Shown one piece after another: positions 9,446-14,443 of a stretch of DNA of 41,453 bases. The DNA is from Candidatus Paralachnospira avium. GTDB lineage: Bacteria; Bacillota; Clostridia; Lachnospirales; Lachnospiraceae. The notes beneath the pieces were generated by a model. That model was not told the DNA's origin and ran no database searches. It saw only the letters and a program-made list of their open reading frames with translations. The position numbers and the translations under genes were made by a program. The stretch is from contig CAJFUL010000018.1 in NCBI GenBank assembly GCA_904420245.1, positions 1 to 41,453 on the forward strand. The letters are read 5' to 3'. How positions within the stretch are numbered: position 1 is the first letter of the stretch; each line of letters begins with the position of its first letter.

Positions 9446-9474
9446 TTTCAGATTCCCTGAAAATCGTATATAAT
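9446..9474 (+). promoter_or_regulatory. Promoter of the sirtuin-gltX operon, with an inverted repeat over the -35
   Basis: TATAAT at 9469-9474 is a perfect -10 box. TTTCAG (9446-9451) sits 17 bases upstream as a weak -35. TTTCAG-ATTCC-CTGAAA (9446-9462) is an inverted repeat overlapping the -35 and spacer and could be an operator. Confidence 0.5.
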
Positions 9475-9516: not shown

Positions 9517-10260
9517 ATGGCATATGAAACTTTGAAACAGATGATAGAGGAGAGCAGGCGGATCATGGTATTCAGCGGGATGGGCATGATCCGGGAGTCC
9601 GGCATCTCCTATTTCCGGGATGAGCCCTACGCGTATCAGATCGAGGCGGAGTACGGAGTCTCGCCGGAGGAGTTTTTAAGCACGGCCTTTTACACCAGCC
9701 GTCCCGGACCTTTTTATAAATTTTACAAGCAGGAAGTATTGAAGCGCCGGAACGACGCCGTGCCCAATCCGGCCCATTTCGCCCTTGCCCGCCTGGAACG
9801 GCAGAAGGAGCAGGAGGGCGGCAGGGTCACGGTGGCCACCAGGAGCATCAGCAGCCTTCACGGAAAAGCCGGTTCTAAAAACGTGATCGAGGTCTGCGGG
9901 AATATGTTCCGGAATACCTGCACCAACTGCGGGAAGGAGTTTTCACCGGAGTATATCATGGAATCCCGCGGGATCCCCCACTGCGACGAGTGCCAGGGAG
10001 CCATCCGGCCGGGCATCCTGCTGGCGGGAGAGATGCTGGACAACGGCATTGTCACTCAAGTGGCCAATGAGACGGAGGCAGCCGATATGCTCCTTGTGAT
10101 CGGTACCCATCTGGATGCCTATATGACGAAGCGGTTCCGCCAGTATTATCTGGGAGACCGGCTGGTGCTCATCAACAATGAGACCCATCCGACGGACCGG
10201 GAGGCCAATATGGTGATCTATGAAAAAGTATCGGATGTACTTCCGAAAGTAATCAGCTAG
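9517..10260 (+). CDS. Degenerate Sir2-family (sirtuin-like) protein
   Basis: 247 residues from the ATG at 9517 (RBS AAAGGAG). The fold is clearly Sir2: a GxG...SGI..FR segment (21-34), SSLHGKAGS (112-120), four zinc cysteines (C135, C138, C156, C159), IRPGILLAGEML (163-174), IGTHLD and INNET. The catalytic residues are altered. The NAD-binding GAGxSxxSGIPDFR reads GMGMIRESGISYFR. The invariant TQNID reads TRSIS, losing Gln, Asn and Asp. The general-base His of the ELHG motif is Cys127 (EVCG). Ordinary deacetylase activity is therefore doubtful. It may bind NAD or a related nucleotide, act on another substrate, or be structural. It lies 15 bp before gltX in one transcription unit. Annotation pipelines would probably call it an NAD-dependent deacetylase. 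Confidence 0.85.
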   Translation: MAYETLKQMIEESRRIMVFSGMGMIRESGISYFRDEPYAYQIEAEYGVSPEEFLSTAFYTSRPGPFYKFYKQEVLKRRNDAVPNPAHFALARLERQKEQEGGRVTVATRSISSLHGKAGSKNVIEVCGNMFRNTCTNCGKEFSPEYIMESRGIPHCDECQGAIRPGILLAGEMLDNGIVTQVANETEAADMLLVIGTHLDAYMTKRFRQYYLGDRLVLINNETHPTDREANMVIYEKVSDVLPKVIS

Positions 10261-10275: not shown

Positions 10276-11733
10276 ATGAAACGAGTCAGGACCAGATTTG
10301 CCCCCAGCCCCACGGGGAGGATGCATGTGGGCAATCTTCGGACAGCGCTGTATGCGTATTTGATCGCGAAGCATGCTGGAGGAGATTTCCTCCTGCGCAT
10401 TGAAGATACAGACCAGGAGCGTTTTGTGGAGGGCGCCCTGGAGATCATTTACCGGACCATGGAAAAGGCCGGGCTTTCTCACGATGAGGGACCGGATAAG
10501 GACGGCGGCTGCGGTCCTTATGTCCAGAGCGAGCGGCAGGCCGCCGGGATCTATCTGGAGTACGCCAAGAAGCTGGTGGATGCCGGAGAGGCCTACTACT
10601 GCTTCTGCGATAAGGAACGGCTGGAGTCCCTCAAGACGACGGTGGCGGGCAAGGAGATCATGGTGTATGACAAGCACTGCCTCCATCTGTCCAAGGAGGA
10701 AGTGGAGGAGAAGCTGGCTTCCGGGAGCCCCTATGTGATCCGGCAGAACAACCCGACGGAGGGGACCACCACGTTTTCCGATGAGATCTATGGAGACATC
10801 ACGGTGGACAATGCGGAGCTGGACGATATGATCCTGATCAAATCCGACGGCTATCCCACCTATAATTTCGCCAATGTGGTGGACGACCATCTGATGGGCA
10901 TCACCCATGTGGTCCGGGGAAATGAGTACCTGTCCTCTTCTCCCAAGTACACCAGGCTGTACCAGGCCTTCGGCTGGGAGGAGCCGGTCTATGTGCACTG
11001 CCCGCTGATCACCGATGAGAACCATAAGAAGCTGAGTAAGAGAAGCGGCCATTCCTCCTTTGAGGACCTTCTGGACCAGGGCTTCGTGCCGGAAGCCATC
11101 GTCAACTATGTGGCCCTCCTGGGATGGTGCCCGGAGGACAACCGGGAGCTCTTTACCCTGGAAGAGCTGGTGGAAGCCTTTGACTACCATCATATGAGCA
11201 AGTCGCCGGCCGTCTTTGACATCCAGAAACTGAAATGGATGAACGGAGAATATCTGAAGGCCATGGATGCCGGCGCCTTCTATGAGATGGCGGAACCTTA
11301 TCTGAAAAAGGTCCTCAAAAAGCCTTTTGACCTGAAAAAGATCGCTTCCATGGTCAAGACCAGGATCGAGGTATTTCCCGATATCGAGGGACTGGTGGAC
11401 TTCTTTGAGGAGCTTCCGGAGTATGAGGTCTCCATGTATACCCATAAGAAGATGAAGACCACGGGAGAGTCCTCGCTGCAGGTCTTAAAGGAAGTGCTTC
11501 CTCTGCTGGAGGCCCAGGAAGACTACGGAAACGACGCGCTCTACGGACTTCTGCAGGGATTTGCCGCGGAGAAGGGGTATAAGAACGGCTATGTGCTGTG
11601 GCCCGTCCGTACGGCGGTGTCCGGGAAGCAGATGACCCCGGCGGGAGCCACGGAGATCATGGAGCTTCTGGGGAAGGAAGAGACCATCTCCCGGATACGA
11701 AAAGGCATTGAAAAGTTAGAGGCATGCAGTTAA
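10276..11733 (+). CDS. gltX: Glutamyl-tRNA synthetase
   Basis: 485 residues, normal for bacterial GluRS. It charges tRNA-Glu with glutamate in the cytosol. The class I signature is [11 protein letters not shown] (10-20) and the KMSKS-like loop is KKLSKRSG (251-258). The [23 protein letters not shown] block is characteristic. The C terminus ([16 protein letters not shown]) is the anticodon-binding part. The ATG follows GGAGAGGAAAAG. The gene overlaps the following helicase by 10 bp. Confidence 0.96.
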
Positions 11734-13598
11734 ACGAATTTCAAAAAGCGGCAGTCAGCCATAAAGAAGGCCCCGCCCTGGTGCTGGCGGGGCCTGGTTC
11801 TGGAAAAACTCTGGTAATCACCCATCGGATCCAAAAACTCATAGAGGAATACGGTGTCCGGCCGGAGCATATCCTGGTGATCACCTTCACCAGGGCTGCG
11901 GCCATGGAAATGAAGGACCGGTTTGAAAAACTGGCGGGAGGGAAAAACCTGCCGGTTACTTTTGGTACGTTTCATTCCGTTTACTTCAGGATCCTCAAAT
12001 ACGCCTATCACTATGACGCCTCCCAGATCATCGGGGACGAGGGCAGGGCGCGGCTCCTTTCGGAAGAGCTGGCCGGCGCAGAGCCTTCCATGGCGGAGGA
12101 GCCTTTGGAGGGGCTTTTGGAGATCCTGGGCGAGATCAGCACCGTAAAAGGAGATATGCTGGATCTGGAGCATTACTATTCCAGGAGCTGTCCGGAGCAT
12201 GTGTTCCGGCGCCTCTTCCGCGCGTATGAAGCCAGGCTGCGCCGGGAACATGTCATTGATTTTGACGATATGCTGTCTCTGTGCCATGAGCTTTTGACGG
12301 AGAGACCGGATATCTTAAGGGGATGGCAGAGCCGCTTCCGGTACATCCTCTGCGATGAGTTTCAGGACATCAACCGCCTTCAGTATGAGATCCTGAAGCT
12401 TCTGGCCCTGCCGGAAAACAACCTTTTCGCGGTGGGGGACGACGACCAGGCCATCTACCGGTTTCGCGGCGCCAGGCCGGAGATCATGCTGAATTTTCCC
12501 AGGGAATTTCCGGGAGCGGCCAGGTATCTTCTGGCCGTCAATTACCGCTCTTCCGACAAGATCCTGAAGGCCTCCGGCTTCTTGATCTCCCACAACCAGG
12601 TCCGGTTTTCCAAGGAGATCTCCGGAAACGGCAGGCCGGGAGAGCCTGTGGTGCTGGGAGGCTTTGCCGGACAGGGGGAGGAGAACAGGAGGATCCTGGA
12701 CCATATCCGGGAATATCACCGGGCCGGCTGCCCCTATGAGGAGATGGCGGTATTGACCAGGACCAATCTGGGAGTCCGTCCTCTGGCGGGGCTTTTGATG
12801 GAATACAACATCCCCTTTCAGGCAAAGGACGCCATCCCCAGCCTCTATTCCCACTGGGTCTGCCAGGACATCCTGGCGTATATCCGGGCGGCGCTGGGAG
12901 AGGAGAGCCGTGAAGTGCTCCTCCGCATAGCCAATAAGCCCTGCCGGTACATTTCCAGGACTGCTTTTTCCGGAAAAAAGACTTCTCTGGAGGAGCTGGA
13001 GGCAGTCTATGAGGAAAAGCCCTGGATCGCGAAACGGGTGGAACGGCTCCGGGAGGATCTGAAGATCATCGGGAAGCGGCCGCCCCATCAGGCCGTCACC
13101 TATATCCGGAAGGCAGTGGGATATGACGGATGGCTGGCAGAGCAGGCAAAGGAGCGGGGATTGGAAGAGGAAGCGCTTTTTGAAGTGCTGGAGGAGCTGC
13201 ACCGGGAAGCGGGAGAGTATGGGACTTTTCCGGAGTGGTTTTCCCATATGGAGCGGGTCCGGGAGGAGATGCGCAGGCAGAAAGAGAACAGGCGGTTCGG
13301 AGGCCGGGGAGTCGTGCTCTCCACGATGCACGGCGCCAAGGGACTGGAGTACCGGGCCGTGTTCCTCCCCGATGTCAACGAGACGGTGATCCCCCATGAA
13401 AAGGCGGGGATGTCCTCGGATCTGGAAGAGGAGAGGCGGCTTTTCTATGTGGCCATGACCAGAGCCAGGGAATATCTGCATATCTACTGGACCAGGGAAC
13501 GGAACGGAAAAGCGGCGGCTCCCAGCCGTTTTATCGCAGAGCTTAAGACAGAGGCTCCCGGGACCGGAGCAATGACAGGAAGGAGAGACAGAACATGA
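11724..13598 (+). CDS. UvrD/PcrA-like superfamily 1 DNA helicase
   Basis: 624 residues. Walker A is GPGSGKT (23-29), motif Ia [12 protein letters not shown], motif II DEFQD (211-215), motif [16 protein letters not shown], motif [21 protein letters not shown], and motif [21 protein letters not shown]. It is a 3'-5' DNA helicase of the UvrD group. It is about 100 residues shorter than PcrA/UvrD and ends soon after motif VI, without the C-terminal RNA polymerase-binding (Tudor-like) tail, so it is probably a paralogue, not the main PcrA. It is translationally coupled to gltX (10-bp overlap) and to the next gene (ATGA). Alternative: a phage-type or RecB-like accessory helicase; less likely. Confidence 0.9.
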
Positions 13599-14443
13599 AC
13601 GAAGTCCTGCACGCGCTGGAGCACGGCGCCCTTGATACCCTGCGGATGCTGCCTTTTTTATTCGCGGCTTTTTTGCTTTTGGAGGCCCTGGAGCACTATT
13701 CCGAAAAACACAGAGACCGGGTCATGACCGGGACGAAGGCGGCCGGCCCGGTGGTGGGCGCCCTTTTCGGGTGTATTCCCCAGTGCGGGTTTTCCGTGGC
13801 GGCGGCGAACCTCTATTCCGGCGGCGCCATTACCCTGGGCACCATGCTGGCGGTCTTTCTGGCCACTTCCGATGAGGCGGTGCTGCTCCTTTTGGGAAAC
13901 CCGGGACAGGGGGGGACGGCCCTTAAGCTCCTCCTCACAAAGCTGGTGCTGGGAACGGTCCTGGGATATCTGGCGGACTTTCTGCTCCGCCGGAGTTCTC
14001 TCAAAAAGAAAACATTGGGAAATATCTGCGAGGACTGCGGCTGCGAGGAGGAGGGCGGCCTCCTGAAGGCGGCCCTGCGCCATACGGTGAGGATCTTTCT
14101 CTATCTGCTCATCTTCACCTGCGCGCTGGAGCTGTTCCTGGAACTGATCGGGATCGAGCAGCTGTCGGGCTTCCTGTTAAAGGATTCTGTTTTTCAGCCC
14201 TTCCTGGCGGCGCTCATCGGCCTGATCCCCAACTGCGCGGCTTCTGTGGCCCTGACGGAGCTCTATATGAGCGGGGTCCTAAGCTTCGGTTCCGTGATCG
14301 CCGGGCTCCTGGCGGGAGCAGGCGTGGGGCTGGCGGTGCTTTTCAAGGTCAACAAACCGATGAAAGAGAATCTGAAGATCCTGGGGATCTTATTCCTCTG
14401 CTCCGTGATCCCGGGGATCTTGCTGCAGCTTTTTGGATTTTAA
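13595..14443 (+). CDS. Two-repeat membrane permease, putative manganese/arsenite-type exporter
   Basis: 282 residues and about eight to ten hydrophobic segments. The halves are related: GCIPQCGFSVAAANLYSGG (59-77) matches LIPNCAASVALTELYMSG (210-227), each with a P-x-C at a helix break. Between them is a cytosolic loop with a Cys cluster, C145xxC148xC150, followed by acidic residues. This layout matches the family annotated as putative manganese transporter or arsenic efflux protein (PF11449-like, from memory). Heavy-metal export is therefore plausible, but the substrate cannot be read from sequence. Its start overlaps the helicase stop (ATGA). No metal riboswitch or metalloregulator gene is adjacent. 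Confidence 0.7.
   Translation: MNEVLHALEHGALDTLRMLPFLFAAFLLLEALEHYSEKHRDRVMTGTKAAGPVVGALFGCIPQCGFSVAAANLYSGGAITLGTMLAVFLATSDEAVLLLLGNPGQGGTALKLLLTKLVLGTVLGYLADFLLRRSSLKKKTLGNICEDCGCEEEGGLLKAALRHTVRIFLYLLIFTCALELFLELIGIEQLSGFLLKDSVFQPFLAALIGLIPNCAASVALTELYMSGVLSFGSVIAGLLAGAGVGLAVLFKVNKPMKENLKILGILFLCSVIPGILLQLFGF

Follow-up and report, generated by a model that had tools for sequence, protein, structure and literature searches.

The window analysed here, a whole contig of 41,453 bases from a 92-contig draft, carries on its forward strand a sirtuin-family gene followed by gltX and a UvrD-type helicase gene (Table 1). The sirtuin-family reading frame opens with an ATG at 9517 and ends in a stop codon at 10258-10260. 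Its translation reads G21-M-G-M-I25, S28-GISYF-R34, T108-R-S-I-S112, L114-HGKAGS and C127-G128, followed by Cys135/138/156/159, I163-RPGILLAGEML, I195-GT and I219-NNET. An earlier note on this DNA had described a Sir2 scaffold in which GMGMI, TRSIS and Cys127 stand beside four zinc cysteines, and every residue and coordinate that it named proved exact. The roles presumed here for GAGxS, QNID, HG, the adenosine side and the substrate strand were assigned from known Sir2 structures, and we take RPGILLAGE to be the counterpart of the Sir2 substrate-binding strand VxFGE.

Pfam SIR2 (PF02146) covers residues 21-199 with 108.2 bits (E 6e-31), above its gathering score of 24, and is the sole Pfam domain over cut-off in the 247-residue protein. 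NCBIfam models for NAD-dependent deacylases span almost its full length, all under their cut-offs; the best, NF001752 (NAD-dependent protein deacylase), reaches 188.6 bits against a curated cut-off of 221. AlphaFold2, run from eight closely related sequences, returned a poor model (pLDDT 63.1), with which Sir2 structures ranked first among the 50 Foldseek matches listed, at TM-scores of 0.39-0.50 and an rmsd of 13-15 Å.

Table 1. Coordinates of the features discussed, with the evidence for each. Counts out of 93 refer to the divergent rows; "canonical rows" are the comparison set.
Feature	Position	Strand	Evidence
Sirtuin-family gene without canonical NAD/catalytic residues	9517..10260	+	247 aa; translation; Pfam SIR2 108 bits; orthologues in 11/11 genus genomes
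GMGMI, residues 21-25, where the NAD loop GAGxS is expected	9577..9591	+	Ala22 1/93, Ser25 11/93, both 0/93; canonical rows 17/17
Residues 43-52 (E43, S49, E52; Y46), conserved above canonical rows	9643..9672	+	entropy 0.61 vs 1.22
Residues 62-75 (R62, E73, L75; F66, Y70 common to both), conserved above canonical rows	9700..9741	+	entropy 0.39 vs 1.0, six columns
TRSIS, residues 108-112, where TQNID is expected	9838..9852	+	QN-x-D 0/93
Cys127 at the catalytic His position	9895..9897	+	His 67, Tyr 12, Arg 6, Cys 2 of 93
Zinc ribbon Cys135/138/156/159	9919..9993	+	every Cys in 93/93
RPGILLAGE, residues 164-172, presumed counterpart of substrate-binding strand	10006..10032	+	P165 93, G171 92, E172 90 of 93
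gltX, glutamyl-tRNA synthetase	10276..11733	+	Pfam tRNA-synt_1c, Anticodon_2; 15 bases after sirtuin-family gene
UvrD-type helicase gene	11724..13598	+	Pfam UvrD-helicase, UvrD_C; 10-base overlap with gltX

The gene had also been placed first in an operon with gltX and a helicase. The order, the gap and the overlap stood as described, and the layout is compatible with an operon, which is as far as that part of the claim goes. A promoter-like site lies just 5' of the sirtuin-family gene at 9447-9474 (10/12 matches), from a scan that returned 2 sites against 2.4 expected from shuffles. Further downstream, an ArsP_2-type permease gene (13595-14443) overlaps the end of uvrD by 4 bases, and a relative is also found 3' of uvrD in the ten other genomes of the genus. 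Elsewhere in the window, a protein opening with a CxxC motif (880-1881) contains a tandem array in which a 48-base unit recurs about five times (951-1199, encoding QGQPYGQPN-type repeats), and a second 48-base repeat array occupies 1-254. An Rfam scan of the window gave no match reaching the gathering score.

Orthologues within the genus and the canonical paralogue

The same genome encodes a canonical sirtuin (L001) on a separate contig (C51), with GAGVSTESG, TQNIDGLH and ELHGS. A search of 61 genomes, 11 of them from the genus, recovered an orthologue of the window protein in each of those 11 (70-85% identity for the ten besides the window's own), and each also gave one more sirtuin-family match, of 38-43% identity. 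All 11 orthologues are without GAGxS and without TQNID, reading TR[ST][IL]x at the latter, and in all 11 genomes gltX lies directly 3' of the gene, followed by uvrD. A canonical TQNID, which in homologues would have pointed to a local error in the window, is absent from these orthologues (0/11). The earlier note had also proposed checking whether homologues share the residue changes and the neighbourhood: the loss of both motifs and the gltX-uvrD arrangement recur throughout, while Cys at the HG position is found in only two, the window and G008. The remaining orthologues have Tyr (one, G007) or His (eight) there. The suggestion that Cys in place of His provides an altered chemistry was therefore not supported, and with Cys in only 2 of the 93 rows of the wider set (Table 1) we rejected Cys-based chemistry as a general explanation.

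Within the genus the sirtuin-family gene has a median pN/pS, uncorrected for saturation, of 0.208, against 0.097 in gltX and 0.237 in uvrD. For the three sirtuin-family orthologue pairs that are closest to each other, dN/dS is 0.010/0.401, 0.021/0.308 and 0.022/0.479, and the window compared with G008 gives 0.087/0.952. The gene is kept by purifying selection, and the original view of an intact frame and a maintained gene was borne out. The residue pattern does resemble that of a degenerate enzyme, yet sequencing error or gene decay is an extremely improbable source of it and we consider it refuted: the ten other genomes have the same motif loss with open frames and low dN/dS, and the zinc cysteines are conserved across the wider set.

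The occurrence of two sirtuin-family matches in all 11 genus genomes searched, the second of them canonical in the window's genome, would suit a divergent protein that acts as a partner to the cell's canonical sirtuin, regulating or completing it, for example in mixed assemblies. Mutually dependent paralogues are known, namely human FAM118A and FAM118B, though both keep the active-site His and Asn according to PMC12700824. However, four genomes in the wider set (G092, G136, G177 and G193) have a divergent match only, and in G137 both sirtuin matches belong to the divergent clade; these assemblies are possibly incomplete, so that a canonical gene may have been missed. Genomes with divergent genes only make such a partnership less likely, and we judge it very unlikely overall.

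Extent of the divergent clade and its lost and kept residues

A profile built from 16 members was run over 396 genomes of the window's family, taken to be the Lachnospiraceae. Read by their motifs, the best 80 matches beyond those already collected comprised 77 divergent and 3 canonical loci (L153, L156 and L157). Together with 15 earlier loci, the divergent ones amount to 92 loci in 85 genomes, and to 93 rows once the window is added; duplicate loci (L025 and L055-L079) were left out of the rows, and so was L019, whose gene proved canonical when read as L175. Divergent members are spread over many genera of the family. Of the 396 genomes sampled, 78 or more have one; this is a lower bound, since the loci fetched reach down to ~265 bits and intermediate forms were possibly missed. 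The rows were picked by similarity to known members, which favours divergent ones, and the counts given here describe that chosen set. In a sample of 146 genomes of the order, the 16 best-scoring loci from other families were all canonical, as were the 15 best-scoring loci from outside the family in a sample of 199 genomes of the phylum.

A tree of 110 rows, made by a quick method with no bootstrap, has one branch that separates all 93 from the canonical rows (SH-aLRT 100); its root is assumed from the outgroup, canonical sirtuins of the same order. The tree thereby places the 93 divergent rows in a single clade of one origin. One genome (G273) holds three divergent sirtuins (L112, L123 and L147) at three separate places, a sign that some genomes have seen an expansion of the clade.

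The comparison set consisted of 17 canonical rows representing 16 genes, L018 and L153 being the identical gene. All 17 retain nine of nine canonical NAD and catalytic residues, and E. coli CobB retains eight. The 93 divergent rows retain between zero and four, and the window protein only Arg34, in agreement with the initial observation that its canonical NAD and catalytic residues are gone. No row has an intact QN-x-D, Ala22 together with Ser25, or Asp112. Taken singly, Gln109 persists in 3 rows, Asn110 in 29, Arg34 in 40 and His127 in 67. What defines the clade is that its members lost the NAD loop together with the nicotinamide-pocket residues; the loss of the histidine is scattered.

Variation was compared as mean entropies in 17-row subsamples drawn from 83 rows, with the window representing its genus, over column groups that were picked after residue conservation had been viewed. 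Against 1.63 for all columns, the divergent rows reach 2.43 in the NAD loop, 2.37 in the FR segment, 2.03 on the adenosine side and 1.75 at QNID, with 1.25 at the His position. Their low columns are the zinc cysteines (0.0), the five columns of the substrate strand (0.42) and residues 43-52 and 62-75 (Table 1). The canonical rows show no variation (0.0) in the NAD loop, the FR segment, QNID or the His position, and little on the adenosine side (0.2) and in the substrate strand (0.1), with 0.98 for all columns. The high entropy at the NAD site, combined with the low entropy at residues 43-52 and 62-75, means that constraint has left the cofactor site and grown in these two segments.

Several of the conserved residues are mostly absent from the canonical rows: E43 (93/93), R62 (92), S49 (87, against 5/17 in canonical rows), E73 (79) and H224 (78). 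Y46 is found in 92/93 divergent and 14/17 canonical rows, and F66 (93/93) and Y70 (89/93) are also common to the canonical rows. Two further comparisons with CobB, a charge reversal at its acyl-recognition Tyr/Arg pair and a pairing of R62 with one of its Arg residues, were set aside because two CobB alignments placed this segment differently.

These constants bring in the main rival to a pseudoenzyme, namely a re-made pocket in which Arg109, an aromatic residue at 112, Arg62, His224 and often His127 form a site for a ligand other than NAD that the protein senses or acts on. R62, H224 and the Tyr or Phe at 112 (76/93) are well kept and mostly absent from canonical rows, Arg109 occurs in 58/93, and His127 is still the commonest residue at its position. 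However, variation above the average in the NAD loop and on the adenosine side is not what a strictly maintained nucleotide site would lead one to expect, and His127 is gone in 26/93. We regard this explanation as possible, if unlikely.

The gltX-uvrD neighbourhood

The note had called the gltX setting unexpected. It is not peculiar to the window's genome, since at 43 of the 92 loci the next gene downstream is a gltX of the same orientation, and thus in 44/93 members with the window; 33 of the 43 are outside the genus. The other 49 members do not show this arrangement: 44 have no gltX in the fetched stretch, some of which reach a contig edge, and five have gltX otherwise arranged. The helicase gene is also present at 41 of the 43 gltX-linked loci. 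The spacing to gltX is an overlap at six of these, 0-20 bases at 11, 21-60 bases at 16 and more at 10 (maximum 165). Counting the genus once, 32 of the 34 rows in the gltX-linked set have Arg109, and 32 have an aromatic residue (Phe or Tyr) at 112, the former count being a further point in favour of the re-made pocket described above. The gltX-linkage label requires six changes on the tree.

Fourteen genomes without a detected member served as a control; the motifs of their single sirtuin were canonical in 8/14, and the other six were classed by score. The uvrD gene lies in the gltX stretch in 11/14 of them and directly after gltX in 9/14. The pair thus also occurs without a sirtuin-family gene, so that this gene either joined a pair that was already there or dropped out of it. 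No gltX was found near canonical sirtuins at 36 loci, most with flanks of 1.5 kb or less; these represent 33 genes, as L018/L153, L019/L175 and L024/L173 are same-gene pairs.

Members elsewhere lie near genes of glycogen metabolism, GlgX and GlgB, which score above their NCBIfam cut-offs, or near a FabK-like gene and a PnpS-like histidine kinase gene, which score below theirs. Within one subclade (L104, L105, L114, L123 and L128), GlgB adjoins in 4/5 and MscS-like and CsoR-like genes are found in 4/5, and four members (L118, L119, L129 and L141) are placed between the gltX-uvrD pair and GlgX. The 44 of 92 loci without gltX, with the five rearranged, indicate that a link to glutamyl-tRNA synthetase (GluRS) is not obligatory.

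Probable role and relation to known sirtuins

We propose that the clade is probably one of sirtuin pseudoenzymes, most likely kept as binding or regulatory proteins. In this reading the protein is a paralogue of the canonical sirtuin that has lost its NAD-binding and nicotinamide-pocket residues but still has the zinc ribbon, the substrate-binding strand and a Sir2 profile overall. Given these losses, NAD-dependent deacylation is not expected; the sequences support the loss of the ordinary reaction well, and from them we infer a lack of catalysis. Some catalytic use is nonetheless conceivable in view of the rows that keep His127 or Arg34. Selection now acts on residues 43-52 and 62-75 and on the RPxxxLxGE strand, a pattern that makes binding or regulatory work the likeliest, and the protein would dock on a protein or acyl-lysine partner. 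Glutamyl-tRNA synthetase, or translation more broadly, is the first candidate partner because the gene lies directly ahead of gltX in the genus and in many other genera. This argument is strongest for the loss of the NAD-site residues and weakest where it assigns a binding role and a partner.

A more specific version, which we consider decidedly unlikely, is that in part of the Lachnospiraceae a sirtuin that once erased marks became a reader working without cofactor. Using the retained substrate strand and the two re-made segments, such a protein would bind acylated or particular lysine peptides, leave the mark in place and tie glutamyl-tRNA synthetase and translation to the state of acylation or metabolism. 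For E. coli, regulation of alanyl-tRNA synthetase by lysine acetylation has been reported (PMC6209979), so a link between acylation and a synthetase is not far-fetched.

Annotation by similarity follows the usual view of sirtuins as NAD-dependent enzymes, and some gut-bacterial genes so labelled may not encode such enzymes. All 38 clade members tested match NF001752 at E 1e-5 or better, the status relative to the cut-off being known for the window protein alone, and misannotation as NAD-dependent deacylases is therefore possible. If the proposed reading is true, the clade is a natural separation of binding from catalysis, with the cofactor site lost and the substrate side and zinc ribbon kept. 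The recurrent position ahead of gltX offers a direct test of sirtuin-family action on an aminoacyl-tRNA synthetase. Among the matches listed in a search of the open PMC literature, with subscription papers outside its scope, none concerned a divergent sirtuin clade or a sirtuin gene beside gltX, and a search of the same literature for residue-level mutants gave no match.

Among known systems, class M sirtuins (SirTM) occur in Lachnospiraceae, among others, and have Gln in place of the catalytic His; PMC4518038 states the roles of this His and of the pocket Asn in sirtuins, reports that the Asn is needed for ADP-ribosylation and describes linkage to macrodomain genes. The window protein likewise lacks the catalytic His, but Gln is found at 127 in 0/93 rows, and where SirTM has its pocket Asn the window protein has Ser. 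A Pfam scan of the eight neighbour genes in the window found no macrodomain, and with no QG motif either, membership of SirTM was rejected. Human FAM118A and FAM118B, ThsA-like proteins that process NAD efficiently only jointly (PMC12700824), resemble the present case as non-canonical sirtuins present as paralogues, but their His and Asn correspond to Cys and Ser in the window protein. Defence-associated SIR2 proteins (ThsA, DSR) are marked by fusion of SIR2 to further domains or by a defence neighbourhood; in the window protein SIR2 stands alone at the Pfam cut-offs, and by Pfam name the eight neighbours scanned include no defence family. The Sir2 structures 2h4h (H116Y) and 2h59 (H116A) similarly retain the fold with the HG histidine changed, but they are laboratory mutants that, judged by the structure titles, have an otherwise unaltered NAD site. 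With canonical Sir2 deacylases (NF001752, PRK00481; CobB; L001) the window protein shares its length, zinc ribbon, substrate strand and near full-length profile match. It differs from them in having neither GAGxS nor QNID, in the change of His to Cys and in a score under the family cut-off, and its clade, unlike most of the canonical rows, conserves E43, S49, R62, E73 and H224.
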